From contig NZ_KE387171.1 in the NCBI RefSeq assembly GCF_000430625.1, forward strand, positions 162,240-226,239: a stretch of DNA of 64,000 bases, given 5' to 3'. The first letter of the stretch is position 1; each line of letters starts with the position of its first letter. Both the position numbers and the translations under genes were made by a program. This stretch comes from Aneurinibacillus terranovensis DSM 18919 (lineage in GTDB: Bacteria > Bacillota > Bacilli > Aneurinibacillales > Aneurinibacillaceae). The notes beneath the pieces are model-generated. The model was not told the origin of the DNA and searched no databases. It saw nothing but the letters and a program-made list of their open reading frames with translations. Positions 4,839 to 25,380 of the stretch are shown here, piece after piece.

Positions 4839-7349
4839 CTAGTCTCTTACCCAGCAAGCCGCAACTTCCTGCAAGCTGGAAAACACGTTTTCCAGTTCTT
4901 CCGCGCTTAAGGGGTGACTAAAATAGTATCCCTGTATTTCATCGCAATGATTCTCCTGTAAAAATACCGCCTGGCTCTTCGTTTCCACCCCTTCAGCGGT
5001 TACTTTTAATTGCATGTTGAGCGCCATCGTAATAATGGCCGTTACGATCGCTGCATTGTTTGGATTGGCTGTTATATCCCGGATAAAGGAACGATCAATT
5101 TTCAGACGATCAATTGGTAGCTTTTGCAAATAGTTTAATGAACTGTATCCGGTTCCGAAATCATCAACGCTGATTTTTACCCCCAGTTTCCTTAATTCAA
5201 AGAGAACTTTAACGATGTTATTAATATCTATCGTCATGCTCTCCGTGATCTCCAATTCGAGTAAAGCCGGATCCAGCTCCGTCTCCCTTAATATCTCTTC
5301 GACTGTTTGAACAAGATGCGATTTCAGAAACTGGCGCGTTGAGAGATTAACGGCAACAGGAAACGCCGGGAAGCCTGCCCGTATCCAGGCCTTGCTTTGC
5401 CGGCATGCGGTTCGGAGCACGAATTCACCGATAGGAACGATAAGCCCTGTTTCTTCCGCAAGCGGGATAAACTCTCCAGGAAGTACAAGTCCGCGTTCAG
5501 GGTGATTCCAACGGACAAGCGCTTCCAAGCCGGAAATTTGACCATTCTGCACATTAATCTTCGGTTGATAGTACACGATAAATTCATTGCGTTCAAGCGC
5601 TTTGCGCAAGTCGTTCTCCAGAATCATCTGTTCAAATGAAGGGTCGTTATGAACAGGATTGTATATCGTGTAGTTGTTTTTCCCCTGATCCTTAACCCTG
5701 TACATGGCTGTATCCGCCCGCTTAATCAACGTCTCCGCGTCTTCTCCGTCTGCGGGGTAAAAAGCGATACCAATGCTTGCGTTTACCGCCAGTTCATACC
5801 CTTCCAGAATCCATGGTTGATTAAAGCAACGCAAAATTTCTTCTGCAGTATCAATCGCTTCCTTTGCATCCGAGATTGCGGGAAGGAGTATAGTGAATTC
5901 ATCCCCTCCCATTCTTGAAATCATAGCTTTTTCCTGCAGGCACGATGTGAGCACCCCCGCTACATGTTTGAGGACAAGATCGCCAAACTCATGACCAAGT
6001 GAATCATTAATTGACTTAAAGCGGTCTAAATCCAAAAAGAGTACCGCGAGCTGCTGCTCCGGGTGTTCTTTTGCCCGTTTCAGAACTTCAACCAAACGTT
6101 CTTTAAATAAGCGGTAATTCGGCAGACCGGTTAAATAATCATAGTAAGCAGACCGCTGGAGAGATTCAAGTGCCGTGGCTCTGTCCAGAACAATCGCGAT
6201 CTGGTTCGTAAAAGCCATGACCTCTGTGCGTTTTTTGTCATCATAAAAATCAATGTGACAGCTGCCAAGATTTAAGGTGCCAATTACTCTACTGCCTGTA
6301 ATTAAAGGGAGTATCAACGTGGAACGTACGCCTTCACTTACCAAAACATGTTCCCGCGGGAAGAGCTCAGCAGACATCATGCTATTGCGAATAAATGGCA
6401 TTTTATTCTTAATAACCATGCTTATTGGCGTATCTGCTAAAGCAATCGTTGTTTTTTCTATCGTTCCATTGCCAGTCAATATGTATAGATAGACAAAATC
6501 ATTCTCGAACTCATTATAAAGTGCAAGGGAAAGCTTATCGGTCGGGATAAATTGCGCGATTTGAGAAAGAATCGCACCTATGACCTCCCTGCGGTTGAAA
6601 TCGTTCTCTATTACCGTACGTGAGATTTCCCTCATCGTCTCCAACATTTTTACTTTTTCCGACAGCTTCTGTGTCGCCCGCGTTATCTCTTCCATCAAAA
6701 TATTTTCATGGCTGGCAATTGTTTCGGCCATCTGATTAAAAGAAACGGATAATTCATGAATTTCTGTCGTGCCTTTCTCAAGAACTACAATATTTCGTTC
6801 TCCCTTTATCATTTGCCTTGTTGCATCAATTAAATTTTTCAAGGGCGCACTTAATCTCCGGCTGGCGAAATAGGACAGCAGGGCCGCGAGCAGAGAAGTA
6901 ACGACAGAAACAATCAGGGTATAAATAAAAAGTGTTGTTCGCTGCTGCTTAAGCGTATCCGTACGCAGCGCTATCTCGATTTGTCCTACCCTTTTTTGAA
7001 AATAGAGAATGGGAACTTTCTCAACAAGAAAAGGATTGGTTGTGATTGTTTCACCTTTCTGGTTTACAACCGTTCCGGCCGTATCCCGGACAATGACGTA
7101 TTGAACATTTGGCTGGTCGAGAAGCGAATACACAAGCGGGCTGATCTGGTCATAATTTCCCTTCATCATATCAAGACCGATGGCAGAACTTAGGAAATTC
7201 GCGGCAGTTATGCCTTCGTTTCGCAAAAAGCCCTCAAGATGTCTCGATTCCATCCATAAATAAAGCCCGCCCAGCAATATGACACCTGTAACGATTAATG
7301 TGTTAATCGCTATCCATAAGCGAAAGGCGAAATGGTTAGACCATTTCAT
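4839..7349 (-). CDS. Membrane GAF-GGDEF-EAL cyclic-di-GMP protein
   Basis: Signalling protein of 836 residues. The order is: membrane segment (about 10-33), extracellular sensor to about 137, membrane segment, HAMP, GAF (about 255-390), GGDEF and EAL. The diguanylate cyclase active site GGDEF is intact (about 481-485). No RxxD inhibitory site is present at the expected spacing before it. The phosphodiesterase domain keeps EAL (about 609-611), ELEITES and DDFGTGYS, so both activities look possible. The chosen ATG overlaps the stop of the upstream binding-protein gene (ATGA), with GAGGAGGT inside that gene's end. A longer start at 7382 lacks this. The coupling suggests that the binding protein feeds the sensor domain. 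Confidence 0.92.
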   Translation of the reverse strand: MKWSNHFAFRLWIAINTLIVTGVILLGGLYLWMESRHLEGFLRNEGITAANFLSSAIGLDMMKGNYDQISPLVYSLLDQPNVQYVIVRDTAGTVVNQKGETITTNPFLVEKVPILYFQKRVGQIEIALRTDTLKQQRTTLFIYTLIVSVVTSLLAALLSYFASRRLSAPLKNLIDATRQMIKGERNIVVLEKGTTEIHELSVSFNQMAETIASHENILMEEITRATQKLSEKVKMLETMREISRTVIENDFNRREVIGAILSQIAQFIPTDKLSLALYNEFENDFVYLYILTGNGTIEKTTIALADTPISMVIKNKMPFIRNSMMSAELFPREHVLVSEGVRSTLILPLITGSRVIGTLNLGSCHIDFYDDKKRTEVMAFTNQIAIVLDRATALESLQRSAYYDYLTGLPNYRLFKERLVEVLKRAKEHPEQQLAVLFLDLDRFKSINDSLGHEFGDLVLKHVAGVLTSCLQEKAMISRMGGDEFTILLPAISDAKEAIDTAEEILRCFNQPWILEGYELAVNASIGIAFYPADGEDAETLIKRADTAMYRVKDQGKNNYTIYNPVHNDPSFEQMILENDLRKALERNEFIVYYQPKINVQNGQISGLEALVRWNHPERGLVLPGEFIPLAEETGLIVPIGEFVLRTACRQSKAWIRAGFPAFPVAVNLSTRQFLKSHLVQTVEEILRETELDPALLELEITESMTIDINNIVKVLFELRKLGVKISVDDFGTGYSSLNYLQKLPIDRLKIDRSFIRDITANPNNAAIVTAIITMALNMQLKVTAEGVETKSQAVFLQENHCDEIQGYYFSHPLSAEELENVFSSLQEVAACWVRD

Positions 7350-19210: not shown

Positions 19211-20653
19211 CTATACGTTTTTGATAGCCTCATCATTAAACTCTTTTGAACTATTGTGAAACAGTTTTGCCAACATGTAATACAACAGGGCCCCAACGAT
19301 GGCGGATGAGGTAAAACTTAAATCTATGCCCCCAACAGCATGTACGAGCGGGCCAGTGTAAACGCTGGTGCCTGTGAACAACAATCCTACAATGACACCA
19401 ATAATCCAAGAAACCATTGCGTAAATGTTAAACCCACCAGAGTACCAATAGCTACTTGACTGCGAACTGATGTGTAGATCTAAAGGCTCATATCGTCCCT
19501 TCACTAAAAAGTGGCCGACAAGATTGATCGCTAACCATGGTGACACGCCAACGATGATAATAATAACGAACGCATCTATAAGGTCTACCATATTGGACAC
19601 ATATACGCCCATAAGCACTAATATAAACCCGATAACGGCCATTATTACTGTGGTCGTAACCCGTTTAAGCGTCCACCCTATCGTTTCGAGAGAAAGCCCG
19701 GCACTGTATAAACACAAGCTTCCGTTTGGCAGACTTCCAAATATCCCGGCAACCATAAGTGGTGCAGCCCACCAGATAGGAGACCCATCGATGATGCCCT
19801 CAACAAAGGGAGTCGATAGATCTTTCACCGTTGACATCATATATGCTGCAGGTACCATAGCTAACCAGCAACCCACAAACATTCCTAGAGACGTCGCCCA
19901 AGTTAGCTTTGTCGAACTATTGTGATTAGGAACATACCTGCTATAATCTCCAATAAACGGTGCATAAGAAATGGGAACGGATGCGGCTGTGATCATGGCG
20001 AGAACCCACGTAGGCCAAAAGCTTTCTAATAGGTATTTGCCCCCTTCATAACTCGCGTTAAAGTGTGAACCAAATATAAACAAAGATAAAATGACAATGG
20101 TTCCAACAAACCAAGTTCCTATTTTTTCAAACAAAACCACCAATTTATGGCCAATGATAGCCACTGTGGCGGTTACTGCGCTGATGATGATGCACCCTAT
20201 CAGTAAAGTGCCGTTTCCTTGTGACCATCCAAACAACCTGTGACCACCCGAAACGAAGGCTTGAGCACCAGTCCAAACCATTAAGCCGTAAAATCCTAAC
20301 GCTATGACGATGTCAAGAATCGATCCGATCACACGACCTTTAACTCCAAAGTGCGCTCCACTAGCGAGCGCTCCATTGGTACCTGTTCTCTGTGACAAAA
20401 TAGCCAATGGCCCAATAACCAATGAACCAATCGCAAGCCCCACGGTTAATGCCCAGAAGGCAGCCCACCATCCAAGCCCAAACACAATGGGCAGCGAACC
20501 GATGGCCATAATTCCATAAGCAAACTGCGAACCGCACAATACATAAAACACATTTGATGCTTTAGAATTCCGCTCATTCTCCGGAATCATATCAACACCC
20601 CGTGTTTCAATCGGGGAATGCTCTTTAAGATAACCCATTTTGTCACTCAACAT
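19211..20653 (-). CDS. NCS1-family permease (nucleobase/pyridine type)
   Basis: Membrane transporter of about 480 residues with roughly 12 hydrophobic segments, from the NCS1 cytosine/purine/allantoin permease family. The acidic N-terminus ENERNSKASNVFYV and SYAPFIGDYSRYVP near the middle are typical of CodB-like proteins. It is the last gene of a catabolic operon with NicX- and NicD-like enzymes, so a nitrogen heterocycle such as a hydroxypyridine or a pyridine carboxylate is the likely cargo. The ATG at 20653 has GGAGGGG directly before it, whereas the ATG at 20665 overlaps that site. The substrate is inference from context. Confidence 0.9.
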   Translation of the reverse strand: MLSDKMGYLKEHSPIETRGVDMIPENERNSKASNVFYVLCGSQFAYGIMAIGSLPIVFGLGWWAAFWALTVGLAIGSLVIGPLAILSQRTGTNGALASGAHFGVKGRVIGSILDIVIALGFYGLMVWTGAQAFVSGGHRLFGWSQGNGTLLIGCIIISAVTATVAIIGHKLVVLFEKIGTWFVGTIVILSLFIFGSHFNASYEGGKYLLESFWPTWVLAMITAASVPISYAPFIGDYSRYVPNHNSSTKLTWATSLGMFVGCWLAMVPAAYMMSTVKDLSTPFVEGIIDGSPIWWAAPLMVAGIFGSLPNGSLCLYSAGLSLETIGWTLKRVTTTVIMAVIGFILVLMGVYVSNMVDLIDAFVIIIIVGVSPWLAINLVGHFLVKGRYEPLDLHISSQSSSYWYSGGFNIYAMVSWIIGVIVGLLFTGTSVYTGPLVHAVGGIDLSFTSSAIVGALLYYMLAKLFHNSSKEFNDEAIKNV

Positions 20654-20736
20654 ATACCCCTCCATTTAATGGTTGTTTTACTTATTTGTAATTCGCGCAA
20701 TCCCTGCATAGAAGTTTCAACACATTTACAATAGGG

Positions 20737-21795
20737 CTATTTTTTACCATGCACTTCGTAATGCTGTGATGTAACGGGTTTCATCTCGTCGATGACAATA
20801 TCTCCGTCTTTAACAATCAACGTGTCGTCGAGATATAATGTACAATTTTTCATAGGTAAATCAAGATGGCAAGGGGTATCGTTGCTTCCTCCTAATTCGG
20901 AATTGGGACCCAACGAGAATAGGACATTTCCATAAAACGCTCGCCCATCCATTCCGAATACCTGATTGTCAAACGCCAAACTATGCCATTGCGCTCGCTC
21001 ATTAAGTCCCCAACCAATATGTGATATCGCATAAGCACGAGGATCTTTAAAGCTGTCCATATATTCCTTCATCAGCATGGCGTCAAATCCACCTTCTATC
21101 TTCGTGACATACCCATTGTTTATCGTTAAATGTATTGGCTCCTGTACATACCGATTAAAGGGGAACAAAATATCTCCTTTATCCATAACGACGATCCCCT
21201 CGACTCCGCCATCGTTGGAAGATGTTGCAGAAAAACAGCTTGGTAAATGGTCCCATTTTCCTGGTTCATCGGCAAAACCATATTCGATAAGGATTGGATA
21301 TTGTCCCAACTGGTATCTGACGTCCGTACCCGACTGATTGGTGAATCTTAGTTCCTTAGCGTTTCTTAACAACTCTGTTGCATAAAGCACCCTTTGCTTA
21401 TCGCTTTCTTTTGGAAACATTCTTTTGATAACATCGAATGGTTCGACTACCATCAATATTCTTACGCCTTCGTTTTGGAGCTCCAACTGTTCTTTTGAAA
21501 ATAAAAGGAGAACTAAGTCAATGACCAGATCTGCCTTTTTCAAGCATTCCACAGCTACTCGATTATCTGTTAAAGGAGTGATACCGAATGAGCCTGTATG
21601 GCCTCTGTTGGCAGATGGTAGTTTCAATTCAAAAGCATTTGCACCAATTTGGGAAGCAGCGTTTAAAAATGCTTTTGCATAATCTGCCCTAATCTCTCCA
21701 GAAGTTAAAACTGCCATAGTTTCTGTCGGCTTTAATTTGCATAACTCAAGTTCATCTTTAAATAAAGCAACCATTTCATCAAACTCAGCGTTCAA
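20737..21795 (-). CDS. nicX: 2,5-dihydroxypyridine 5,6-dioxygenase (NicX-like)
   Basis: Iron(II) ring-cleaving dioxygenase of 352 residues, which turns 2,5-dihydroxypyridine into N-formylmaleamate. The similarity to Pseudomonas putida NicX, recalled from memory, runs end to end: QYPILIEYGFADEPGKWDH, AISHIGWGL..RAQW, MDGRAFYGN and TPCHLDLPMKN. The metal ligands His (about 259), His (about 310) and Asp (about 312) match the two-His-one-Asp site of NicX. With a TTG start at 21795 (AGAGGTG upstream) the length and N-terminus match NicX. A TTG six codons earlier is the alternative. The operon neighbour is a NicD-like deformylase, the next step in the pathway. Confidence 0.9.
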   Translation of the reverse strand: MNAEFDEMVALFKDELELCKLKPTETMAVLTSGEIRADYAKAFLNAASQIGANAFELKLPSANRGHTGSFGITPLTDNRVAVECLKKADLVIDLVLLLFSKEQLELQNEGVRILMVVEPFDVIKRMFPKESDKQRVLYATELLRNAKELRFTNQSGTDVRYQLGQYPILIEYGFADEPGKWDHLPSCFSATSSNDGGVEGIVVMDKGDILFPFNRYVQEPIHLTINNGYVTKIEGGFDAMLMKEYMDSFKDPRAYAISHIGWGLNERAQWHSLAFDNQVFGMDGRAFYGNVLFSLGPNSELGGSNDTPCHLDLPMKNCTLYLDDTLIVKDGDIVIDEMKPVTSQHYEVHGKK

Positions 21796-21823
21796 TATAC
21801 ACACCTCTTTCAATTTGATAGAT

Positions 21824-22645
21824 TTATTGATTTATAGTTTTTTCAATAAAAGAAACAATAAAATTAGCAGTTTGTTCAGGATCATCCTTATATACCATGT
21901 GTCCCACACCTTTGATCCTTTCCACCTTCATTTGGGGATTGAGCCTCTTTAACACCTCTAATTCATTATCACGAATCGTATCTCCAAACTCGGCAGCCAA
22001 AAGCAATGCAGGCGCAGAAAGCATTCTTATGAACACTTGGAAAGGCTCCCTTAAGAGTGATTCATATGATTGAATGATGGCTTGTAAACTATTATTTCGA
22101 TATTCTTCAGCTCTTTCGGCCACTTGTTCTTCCGTGAAAGAAGGAAAAAAACTCCGGAATAATTCCATATCACCCTGGTCAACAGCCTCCTTTTGTTTTA
22201 TAAACATAGACAACGGGTTTGGGTATATCTCTCTTTGTCCTGGGCCATTAATTGGAGGGTCAATTAATACCATACCGGAGATTAGAGATGAATAGCGACT
22301 ACCGAAAGCGGCGGCAATTCTGGCTCCCATGGAATGACCCACCAAAACCGGCGGAACTGGATTATCTACTAATGCGTTAACTACATTCAGCAAGTCCTCT
22401 GTATAGTCTTTTAACAAGTAACCTTCTTTAGGCGAATCGGACAGCCCCCTGCCCCTTATATCCATTGACAGCGAATAATACTTTTCCGGCATAAGATTTA
22501 GGACTTTTATAAATGAATAGCTGTAACTCGTGATGCCATGCAAGAAGATAACCGGAATGCCGCTTTCATTCCCTTTGGTAATAAGATGAATTTTGGCGTT
22601 TACACCCTTCACGAATAAGTGTTCAAAATATTCAATTTTATTCAC
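21824..22645 (-). CDS. nicD: N-formylmaleamate deformylase-like alpha/beta hydrolase (NicD-like)
   Basis: Alpha/beta hydrolase of 273 residues. The nucleophile Ser is at 105 (VGHSMGAR), the oxyanion region is LHGIT, the acid is in the stretch AAEFGDT and the base is His 249 (GVGHMVY). DIRGRGLSDS and the stretch VLIDPPINGPGQRE closely recall P. putida NicD (DVRGRGLSSS, LVDPPVSGPGRR). NicD hydrolyses N-formylmaleamate to maleamate and formate. The gene starts with GTG after GGAGG and lies 28 bases before the nicX-like start, so they are cotranscribed. A related esterase role cannot be excluded from sequence alone, but the context is strong. Confidence 0.85.
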   Translation of the reverse strand: MNKIEYFEHLFVKGVNAKIHLITKGNESGIPVIFLHGITSYSYSFIKVLNLMPEKYYSLSMDIRGRGLSDSPKEGYLLKDYTEDLLNVVNALVDNPVPPVLVGHSMGARIAAAFGSRYSSLISGMVLIDPPINGPGQREIYPNPLSMFIKQKEAVDQGDMELFRSFFPSFTEEQVAERAEEYRNNSLQAIIQSYESLLREPFQVFIRMLSAPALLLAAEFGDTIRDNELEVLKRLNPQMKVERIKGVGHMVYKDDPEQTANFIVSFIEKTINQ

Positions 22646-22741: not shown

Positions 22742-24250
22742 TTATGCCAGAGGAAGTCCAATCGATTTACGGATTTGGTTCATGAAAGGCGTTCTATCAT
22801 ATTCGTGATAGAGGCGCTCACGAAGCAGCGGTGCGGGCAACGCGTTCACGTTTTCGAACAGACCTACACGACCTGCATGGGAATCGGTCGTAATATCCCA
22901 AATAAAGTTCATTAACAGGTTCTTCTGCTTGGATGTTAATCCGCGACCAAATAACAGTTCCTCTAATTTTCCACCAATATACGGATGTTCATAATCTTTT
23001 TCCGAGAACCTCATGACCAGCCCCTGTCCACACAGCTCCTGGAGGTGATGAATCATTTGCGGATAATGTACAATTCCATAGAGTCGCCCTGCTGTAAGCA
23101 TATTGACATCCGGCCACATGACTCCATCTTCGGTCAGTTTAGCTAATTCCTCAGAAGCTAGCACATACGCTCTCAGCGTTTGAGCATACTGGATGACTTC
23201 CGATACGATGGAACGCACTCCTGGGATTTTTCCTGTTCCCAGCGCCTCGACAATGAGTTGGGCAGCCCCCACATACATTTCAGCCTTGGTAGCCAAACGC
23301 GAAAGAACGTGCCAATGCACCCCTAATACTACACTGCCATATAACTCATTGAGTTCCGGAACCCCGTAGTTAAAAATTCTCCATTTTTCCACAAAAACGT
23401 TATCAAAAATCAAGAAGGAATCCATTTCTTCCCCGCGTGATTTTACCGGGTGATCGTAGGAACTGGCAGAATCCACAGATACCGTTTCGCGGCATACAAT
23501 ATGGACGCCCGGCGCATTGATGGGAACAGCTAACCACAAAGATTCTTCCGGTAACAGACCGGGGCGCATCAAGTTAGAGAGTATCATTTCATTTCCTTGG
23601 GAAGAAACAGAACCCACCGCCTTCGCTCCGCTAATATAAATCCCTTCTTCCGTTTCTTTCACCACCCTCAACAGGGCTGGCGTTGAGTCTCCCCCTTTCA
23701 TTTTGCTCCCTAATTCCACATCGAACAAACGAGCACCCGCTGCGGCGGCTTTGGAGCGGTCATTTTGAGGATCTACCAACACCTCCGGTCCCATCAGATT
23801 GTTTTTTTGCGCATAGTCGATATAGTGAAGAACATTCTCCGCATATTCCGGCCTTTTTTTGCGGAACTGGGAGAGGTACGCGGCCATCCCTACAGGCACA
23901 AGGGGAGCAAGATCAAATGGGCGGCCAAACACTCCAAAAGTTTCCTGAGCGACGTAATCGATGAGTTCCCGGCGGCTTTTAAGATCTTCTTTCGTCCTTG
24001 GAATCATCCAGGCTTTACTTACACGTTCACCTAACTCCGGGTTCAGATACGTAAGTCTATCCTGCATTTCCGGATCATGCTGGGCATCAAAAATTTTAGC
24101 CATGATATTGATGCCACCGCTGGTAGCCGGGTGAGCTGTCACATCCGGAATGAGTTCACCCTTGTAATACACAGCACGACCATCACGAAGGCTTTCTTTG
24201 TACATCTCACCTGTTTTCAAATATTTCGATAATACCTGGGTCTTTTCCAT
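22742..24250 (-). CDS. HpaB-family flavin-dependent monooxygenase
   Basis: Protein of 502 residues from the 4-hydroxyphenylacetate 3-hydroxylase (HpaB) large-component family, with the acyl-CoA dehydrogenase fold. It uses reduced FAD supplied by a separate reductase. Recognisable parts include HPATSGGINIMAKIFDAQHD (about 55), IYISGAKAVGS, the flavin-site stretch LAVPINAPGVHI, SRGEEMDSFLIFDNVFV and the C-terminal MRFSEKDYEHPYIGGKLEE. AAAGGAGGAGA precedes the ATG at 24250; the frame open to 24307 is not needed. It heads an operon with nicX- and nicD-like genes, so it probably hydroxylates a pyridine ring to give 2,5-dihydroxypyridine. In P. putida a different monooxygenase type (NicC) does this. 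No reductase gene is visible nearby. Confidence 0.88.
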   Translation of the reverse strand: MEKTQVLSKYLKTGEMYKESLRDGRAVYYKGELIPDVTAHPATSGGINIMAKIFDAQHDPEMQDRLTYLNPELGERVSKAWMIPRTKEDLKSRRELIDYVAQETFGVFGRPFDLAPLVPVGMAAYLSQFRKKRPEYAENVLHYIDYAQKNNLMGPEVLVDPQNDRSKAAAAGARLFDVELGSKMKGGDSTPALLRVVKETEEGIYISGAKAVGSVSSQGNEMILSNLMRPGLLPEESLWLAVPINAPGVHIVCRETVSVDSASSYDHPVKSRGEEMDSFLIFDNVFVEKWRIFNYGVPELNELYGSVVLGVHWHVLSRLATKAEMYVGAAQLIVEALGTGKIPGVRSIVSEVIQYAQTLRAYVLASEELAKLTEDGVMWPDVNMLTAGRLYGIVHYPQMIHHLQELCGQGLVMRFSEKDYEHPYIGGKLEELLFGRGLTSKQKNLLMNFIWDITTDSHAGRVGLFENVNALPAPLLRERLYHEYDRTPFMNQIRKSIGLPLA

Positions 24251-24316
24251 TCTTTCTCCTCCTTTAATACGATAGAAAATTCTTTCCATAAGCAAAGAGT
24301 AAAACATTAAAACTTC

Positions 24317-24352
24317 ACCAAATCCACCAAATCAACCAAACTTACCAAACCT
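24317..24352 (-). repeat. Four 9-bp tandem repeats in the leader of the catabolic operon
   Basis: On the minus strand TTTGGT recurs every 9 bases four times (plus-strand ACCAAA at 24317, 24326, 24335 and 24344). They lie downstream of the predicted promoter (24364-24392) and 65-100 bases before the start codon. They would therefore be transcribed. They could bind a regulator as DNA or as RNA. Confidence 0.7.
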
Positions 24353-24363
24353 TCCATGACCTT

Positions 24364-24392
24364 ATTCTATCTTGTGCCTTTTATTTTGTCAA
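24364..24392 (-). promoter_or_regulatory. SigmaA promoter of the catabolic operon
   Basis: On the minus strand TTGACA (24392-24387), 17 bp and TAGAAT (24369-24364). This is close to consensus and places the start of transcription just before the TTTGGT repeats. Confidence 0.75.
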
Positions 24393-24476: not shown

Positions 24477-25262
24477 TTAATCCAGCTGCTCTATCGGCGG
24501 TTTCATGCCTTTTAATACCTTCTCCAGATTCATTACATCTGCGTATCTCGCGTTTAGGTCTATTAATGTCGAGTTCTGCAAGGTTTGATTACGATCTCCT
24601 ACAGCTTCTTTAGGAATGATTACTCTGTAACCCCTTTGGAGGGCATCTACCGCGGTCGCTCTTATACTTCCACTGGTTGTAGCACCAGCCAATATTACAG
24701 TATCTATCTGGCGTTTTTTCAGAAAATCATCTACTTCACGATTATATACGTCAGTGATATGTACTGTAGGATTAATCATATCGTAAGAATGATCACTAAG
24801 GGCTGGATGAATGTTGACCCACGTACTTTGACGATCTAAAATTTGAAGTGATGGGAATTTTTGGCACCATAACCTAGATACCTCATTAGTTGAGTCGTAT
24901 ATTGTTATACTAAAGATAATCGGTATGTTATGTGAAACTGCTTCTTCTATAAGTTGTTTTGTTGCAGAAATTTGATTTTCAATCTTAATGGATAATTGAG
25001 AATGTGGTTCAGTAAAAGCTATCGTTAAATCACGAATGAGAAGCGCCGGTTTTTTACCAAACCCAATTTGTCCCGAAAATCCTTGTTCAGAGTAAAGTTG
25101 TTGTAACTCATCTAGAATATATCTTCTTTGTCCTCCAGGAGTATATAAAACCTTTAAACCATAGCCTTCAATCATTCCATTCTTCTCTAACCGGCGCAAT
25201 GTACTGGGTGAAACTCCCAGTCGCTTTGCAGCTTCAGATATATTTAAAAGATTCTCATACAT
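24477..25262 (-). CDS. MerR-type HTH fused to an inactive isochorismatase/maleamate-amidase-like domain
   Basis: Fusion protein of about 261 residues. Residues 6-54 form a MerR/excisionase-like helix-turn-helix (ISEAAKRLGVSPSTLRRLEKNG then TPGGQRRY). Residues 67 to the end form an isochorismatase-family hydrolase of the N-carbamoylsarcosine amidase/NicF kind (KKPALLIRDLTIAFTEP; AGATTSGSIRATAVDALQRG). The catalytic Asp (about 78) remains. The nucleophile Cys of TTSGC is Ser (about 199), and the usual Lys position appears to be Pro (about 165), so the domain is probably not an amidase. It lies upstream of the nicX/nicD operon with its own terminator. I infer a regulator that senses a maleamate-like intermediate. 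The ATG at 25262 has AGAGG upstream. Confidence 0.85.
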   Translation of the reverse strand: MYENLLNISEAAKRLGVSPSTLRRLEKNGMIEGYGLKVLYTPGGQRRYILDELQQLYSEQGFSGQIGFGKKPALLIRDLTIAFTEPHSQLSIKIENQISATKQLIEEAVSHNIPIIFSITIYDSTNEVSRLWCQKFPSLQILDRQSTWVNIHPALSDHSYDMINPTVHITDVYNREVDDFLKKRQIDTVILAGATTSGSIRATAVDALQRGYRVIIPKEAVGDRNQTLQNSTLIDLNARYADVMNLEKVLKGMKPPIEQLD

Positions 25263-25352
25263 ATTAATTCCTCTTTTCACAGAACTCAGTTTAAATGTTC
25301 AAACAACTTGTTAAAGTTACAAAAAGTATATAAACCTCTTGAAAATACCATT

Positions 25353-25380
25353 ATTATATCATAACAAGAGTGTTGATTAA
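25353..25380 (-). promoter_or_regulatory. Possible promoter of the regulator gene
   Basis: On the minus strand TTAATC (25380-25375), 16 bp and TATAAT (25358-25353), about 90 bases before the start. The -35 match is weak. Confidence 0.4.

Follow-up and report, generated by a model that had tools for sequence, protein, structure and literature searches.

A tandem 9-bp repeat array, most likely an operator of the adjacent HTH-NicF fusion protein, in a hydroxypyridine/maleamate gene cluster of Bacilli

The gene cluster and its phased repeats

The window (the whole stretch of 64,000 nucleotides analysed here, from Aneurinibacillus terranovensis DSM 18919) carries on its minus strand a set of catabolic genes led by an hpaB-like gene, upstream of which, on the same strand, lies the gene of a protein designated HTH-NicF. 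The features that matter for what follows are these:

19211-20665, minus strand: NCS1-family transporter (domain match)
20737-21813, minus strand: 2,5-dihydroxypyridine 5,6-dioxygenase, NicX (7cn3, E 7.7e-95)
21824-22645, minus strand: alpha/beta hydrolase, NicD-like (Abhydrolase_1; the name NicD comes from pathway context)
22742-24250, minus strand: HpaB-like flavin-dependent monooxygenase, first gene behind the array (domain match)
24307-24357, minus strand: 16-codon frame MEGLVSLVDLVDLVKF, from an ATG at 24357 (predicted +1) to TAA (sequence)
24314-24358, minus strand: 9-bp phased array, a degenerate CATGGAAGG (24358-24350) followed by four units (24349-24314) (sequence)
24364-24392, minus strand: sigma-A type promoter of the hpaB-like gene, TTGACA-17-TAGAAT (11/12 match)
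24477-25262, minus strand: HTH-NicF, wHTH (~residues 1-57) plus isochorismatase/NicF-type domain, proposed repressor (domain and profile matches)
25307-25324, minus strand: two-unit degenerate copy of the array, TTTTGTAAC/TTTAACAAG, in the leader of the HTH-NicF gene (matrix scan)
25353-25361, minus strand: extended -10 TGATATAAT of the HTH-NicF gene (read by eye)

Judged by gene content (NicX with an HpaB-type monooxygenase, the hydrolase, the transporter and the genes of contig C82 of the same assembly), this cluster is a 2,5-dihydroxypyridine-to-maleamate route; the substrate with which the route starts we infer. C82 encodes an Asp/Glu racemase-like protein (Amdase) and a NicF, together with a flavin reductase and an FAD synthetase whose names are taken from annotated Peribacillus relatives. 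A literature search at title and abstract level, with thin coverage of subscription journals, returned no paper on an HpaB-type maleamate cluster of Bacilli.

Each end of C82 (L070) is identical to the window over exactly 95 nt, one at the hpaB stop (22836-22742), the other within the array (24331-24237). These shared ends imply that two hpaB copies have probably been collapsed into one by the assembler (window 22742-24331). The genes that C82 carries (racemase-like, flavin reductase, NicF and FAD synthetase) are those expected between hpaB copies. The true order is likely to be HTH-NicF, leader, hpaB, the C82 genes, second leader, hpaB, nicD, nicX, an order that fits the presence of the four-unit leader next to HTH-NicF; where the window joins hpaB directly to nicD, ~5 kb may be missing. 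The frame of the second leader reads MKGLESLVDLVKF up to its stop.

The repeats consist of four TTTGGTNNN units in perfect 9-nt phase (TTTGGTAAG, TTTGGTTGA, TTTGGTGGA and TTTGGTGAA) on the coding-strand side, just as an earlier note on this DNA had described them, and dinucleotide shuffles of the window generate 0 arrays in 100. The near-consensus promoter that the same note had placed just upstream is likewise borne out. The first, degenerate unit starts at the predicted +1 of the hpaB-like gene (24357), and the gene itself, which starts at 24250, is preceded by its own ribosome-binding site. A search of the 64-kb window for the array at up to three mismatches matches a single place, in two overlapping registers, and no second place with three phased units was found in the 4.25-Mb assembly.

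Conservation of the array and its recurrence at other promoters

The search for close HpaB relatives yielded ten loci, and most of the clusters have two hpaB genes, each with a separate leader. The leader set comprises 21 distinct hpaB leaders of 11 genomes (this genome, with the window and C82, plus ten others); the Pfri2 leaders, from a second Peribacillus plasmid and identical by eye to those of Pfri1, are left out of the counts, as is one Brevibacillus hpaB leader that lacks the element. The array element follows the promoter in all 21. (The earlier note had made conservation of the repeats in relatives a test of its proposal; they are kept.) The best match to TTTGGTAAGTTT is 12/12 in 13 leaders, 11 in four, 10 in one and 9 in three. 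The element lies 13-15 nt past the -10 box in 20 of the 21, and the spacer between -35 and -10 is 17 nt in every one. The number of units varies from leader to leader, making a natural series of 2-5 repeats across species. Shuffle tests overstate the significance of such figures because the leaders are related by descent.

Some leaders and clusters show further features. Inspection by eye shows, in about half of the hpaB leaders, an extra unit-like stretch, AACTTTGATAACTTC, some 46-48 nt downstream of the first (for example at ~3938-3957 of L005), which might serve as another site, for looping. Of the second hpaB in Bacillus massiliglaciei (L088) only a fragment is left; its promoter and array remain. 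The entire cluster of Peribacillus frigoritolerans (L083, L084) resides on plasmids of 250-305 kb, which suggests possible horizontal transfer. The array-free hpaB cluster of Brevibacillus massiliensis (L012, 33-1949) adjoins an XylR_N/PucR-type activator, and the HTH-NicF of this species (L102) belongs to a different, nic-like cluster with reversed as well as sense arrays.

Recurrence of the array at the promoter of HTH-NicF itself was assessed with a scoring matrix of nine columns, for which hpaB leaders were the only training set and which was then applied to HTH-NicF promoters. Among minus-strand places in the window the HTH-NicF leader scores highest after the hpaB leader; the two-unit degenerate copy there (25324-25307) corrects the earlier impression that no other leader of the window holds anything similar. 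For the 11 cluster genomes, pairs in the HTH-NicF promoters score z 8.3 at a spacing of 9, the top of spacings 5-20 (the runner-up is 19, with z 5.9). The score for pairs at spacing 9 is 4.7 or more at 9/11 of these promoters, the matrix scan of the 11 cluster genomes having found no array at those of REN2 and G173; single-site p is <0.03 at 7/11 and 0.066 at the window's own.

HTH-NicF homologues are present in 10 genomes of the 398 Bacilli searched. A further set of 10 promoters (nine more homologues and a paralogue from Bacillus sp. V5-8f; L111 was dropped, its start not being placeable) gives z 7.9 at spacing 9; no other spacing exceeds 3.5, and 9 is the top spacing in five of the ten. In four homologues of 35-62% identity (L109, L110, L112, L113) the matrix scan found no clear array. 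The divergent HTH-NicF/NicF promoter of the Bacillus sp. V5-8f paralogue holds the top-scoring pair of its 11-kb locus (19.5).

The orientation and the company of the array also vary. In the homologues of two distant relatives, Brevibacillus (G109) and G649, the array is antisense to transcription, just after a -10-like TATAAT (scores 18.0 and 22.0). Brevibacillus has further copies, one ahead of a nicD-like gene (14.7) and a weaker one (6.3) ahead of an FAD monooxygenase gene. In G001, a genome of the same genus in which no hpaB relative was found, the array precedes a nicF gene that adjoins HTH-NicF (22.1). Several relatives have HTH-NicF leaders whose first unit starts 1-2 nt past TATAAT, which puts it partly upstream of +1. 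In Neobacillus sp. PS3-12 (L066, ~5776-6553) the HTH-NicF gene is broken into two frames, and the putative operator array is intact. A 15-mer of the array was rejected as a specific marker: 27 of the 398 genomes contain it, of which 23 gave no HTH-NicF match, and this is about the rate of a reversed control pattern.

HTH-NicF: a BldC-like head on a NicF-type domain

The N-terminal domain of HTH-NicF is a MerR-like wHTH by domain match. The HTH_BldC model is matched by all 11 HTH-NicF members (best 2.9e-8); against the curated BldC cut-off (NF033787, 77 bits) the window protein scores 24.7 bits and falls below. BldC is the top sequence match of a PDB profile search with the HTH (E 0.0055), and that search alone reached it; single-sequence phmmer of the HTH did not. 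The predicted full-length model is poor (pLDDT 57.7), and the structure search used a model of the HTH with pLDDT 72.5, for which Foldseek also puts BldC at the top (prob 0.99, E 0.05); VIA-align gives BldC a Z of only 4.4, level with other wHTH proteins including Xis. The HTH resembles HspR, CueR, ZntR and SoxR models as well.

According to published work (PMC5859096), Streptomyces BldC (PDB 6AMK, 6AMA) binds 9-bp direct repeats head-to-tail at whiI and smeA-sffA, one protomer occupying 9 bp; the repeat is AATT-N4-C, Arg30 reads a YpG step, Arg47/48 are in the wing, and this type of binding is described for a small wHTH without input domain. Both systems have a MerR-like wHTH and sites, putative ones for HTH-NicF, that are variable numbers of 9-bp direct repeats combining an AT tract with a C-G pair. 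The complement of the array, ACC-AAA-CTT-ACC-AAA, has CAAA steps 9 bp apart, similar to the CAATT steps in the site of BldC. The recognition arginine and the Arg-Arg pair of the wing are conserved: BldC Arg30, Arg47, Arg48, Gly44, Thr27 and Lys33 correspond to R24, R46, R47, G43, T21 and K27 of HTH-NicF, invariant in 11/11.

On the other hand, BldC is a bare wHTH of 68 residues without effector domain and a developmental regulator, whereas HTH-NicF has a 200-residue enzyme-like domain and sits in a catabolic cluster. HTH-NicF further differs in five residues inserted ahead of the wing, in Gln at the place of His46 and in Pro at that of Leu43. The head-tail interface residues Arg22, Trp31 and Leu43 of BldC become Gly16, Leu/Met25 and Pro42; its hydrophobic core (Phe21, Val23, Trp31, Leu43) becomes Leu/Val15, Val17, Leu/Met25 and Pro42, nonpolar and different residues; and of the Arg22-Glu16 pair, Glu16 is kept as Glu/Asp and Arg22 is replaced by Gly. 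Because the interface residues partly differ in this way, we only infer a head-to-tail assembly of HTH-NicF. Because it lies below the curated cut-off and has an effector domain, HTH-NicF is not filed in the BldC family, although it would act in the manner of BldC: by its sequence it is BldC-like only. Its wHTH fold is also similar to those of Xis and RdfS, oligomeric wHTH recombination directionality factors (Pukovnik Xis, RdfS; VIA-align). Factors of this type oligomerise on DNA, according to PMC11963761; they differ in that they control excision and conjugation and are connected neither with catabolism nor with a pseudoenzyme.

The C-terminal domain is related to NicF and carbamoylsarcosine amidohydrolase (26st, E 9e-37; 4l08, E 2.5e-24), sharing fold family and sequence with NicF/maleamate amidohydrolase and N-carbamoylsarcosine amidohydrolase (4l07, 26st, 1nba). 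It differs from NicF in its active site, where Cys is replaced by Ser199 and Lys by Val167 in 10/10 and Asp78 is retained; the separate, true NicF on C82 retains both the catalytic Cys and the catalytic Lys. From these residues the domain looks like a pseudoenzyme sensor. No paper on an HTH-isochorismatase fusion regulator was found at title and abstract level, where subscription journals are thinly covered.

The array as operator, and other explanations

The array is most likely, on comparative sequence evidence, a real and conserved tandem 9-bp DNA operator that serves the adjacent HTH-NicF. Each 9-bp unit (TTTGGTAAG in the sense strand, CTTACCAAA in the other) would be the footprint of one BldC-like wHTH, and two to five units would accommodate several HTH-NicF subunits in a head-to-tail row. 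Since the array is located at the predicted start of hpaB transcription, and in leaders of HTH-NicF lies across +1 or behind it, such a row should block initiation or promoter escape, repressing both the HTH-NicF gene and the catabolic operon. Because it has lost its nucleophile, the NicF-type domain could bind maleamate or a related intermediate and not hydrolyse it; once the ligand is bound, the row would come apart and the operon would be derepressed. Taken together, the account that we consider probable is a BldC-like operator at which HTH-NicF keeps both its own gene and the hydroxypyridine/maleamate operon repressed until a pathway ligand releases the protein. The suggestion in the earlier note that several HTH subunits might occupy one groove after another is well supported by recurrence at the regulator's own promoter, by the occurrence of both orientations and by the 9-bp unit of BldC. 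Given BldC, the mismatch that it remarks on between a 9-base period and the helical turn of DNA is no objection.

Since 9 nt are three codons, the repeats also fall inside a reading frame, and the array could instead be a leaderless upstream ORF (AUG at +1, M-x-[AG]-L-V-S-L-V...) that would control hpaB through its translation, through stalling or through termination. Leader peptides of the TnaC and Erm types are examples of such control. An ATG stands 5-7 nt past the -10 box, at the predicted +1, in 20/21 hpaB leaders, with intervening bases that vary; the operator model has no need of it. A frame of 8-16 codons ends before hpaB in 19/21 leaders (Pfri1_a by eye), G173_b keeps its frame (MTAIVGLF, then stop) despite a degraded array (9/12), and the nicF leader of G001 again has an ATG, 6 nt past TAGAAT. 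Yet a purine at +1 and the TG of the repeat unit can explain the ATG, and the frame of G001 is not short: it runs through 30 codons or more without a stop. Variability is lowest at the third codon position (mean entropy 0.48; the other two positions have 0.61 and 0.65, over codons 2-8 of 17/21 leaders; C82_b was missed by the position filter, and REN2_a, V58f_b and G173_a are out of register), which is the reverse of selection at the protein level. In two of the 21 leaders the frame is broken and the array kept (REN2 has ATA; G173_a has ATG-TGG-TAA). No such frame at +1 was seen at the HTH-NicF promoters, the paralogue promoter or the reversed copies, and the leader has neither an intrinsic terminator (0 found) nor a conserved structure. 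Control by the peptide frame is therefore unlikely, though it stands above the alternatives that follow, and the 16-codon frame that overlaps the array in the window is, from its sequence, probably incidental.

A DNA operator for an ordinary dimeric MerR-like mode, or for another regulator, in place of a head-to-tail row of HTH-NicF, is still less likely. The resemblance of the HTH to the HspR, CueR, ZntR and SoxR models and the differences at key BldC interface residues speak for it. Classical MerR activators have their operator inside a spacer of 19-20 bp (PMC5859096), whereas the spacer here is uniformly 17 nt and the repeats are downstream and direct, not inverted; a classical MerR promoter was rejected on the spacer. 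No other regulator is listed beside hpaB in the annotated Peribacillus cluster.

TRAP binds triplet repeats in RNA. The proposal that a protein likewise binds UUUGGUNNN repeats in the leader RNA as a linear array, which the earlier note had entertained and for which it can be cited that the repeats of all 21 hpaB leaders lie past the promoter and in the sense strand of the transcript, is very improbable in view of the two homologues with antisense arrays, of first units partly upstream of +1, of a neighbouring regulator with a predicted DNA-binding wHTH and of the lack of a conserved RNA fold. (Conserved structure was rejected, RNAalifold finding 0 consensus pairs in 12/21 leaders, with the L070 row slightly out of register, and the window leader alone having a fold z of -0.87.)

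Recurrence at HTH-NicF and paralogue promoters and in reversed copies thus argues for DNA as the target, and not for RNA or a leader peptide. The DNA operator of HTH-NicF may be extended to a ligand-gated version of the BldC mode, in which a dead enzyme of the pathway senses maleamate or a precursor and sets the number of heads on a 9-bp ladder at +1, in which the threshold for induction of a given promoter is adjusted by its number of repeats, and in which the ladder can also be read as a leaderless peptide frame; as a whole this is a tentative picture, possible and somewhat short of probable.

If HTH-NicF does bind the ladder, the BldC-type mode would extend to a metabolite-sensing regulator, and that regulator would be a wHTH head fused to a retired enzyme of its own pathway. 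The series of 2-5 repeats across species would then be a ready set of operators for relating repeat number to affinity and induction, and the poorly described hydroxypyridine/maleamate route of Bacilli gains a candidate regulator and operator.
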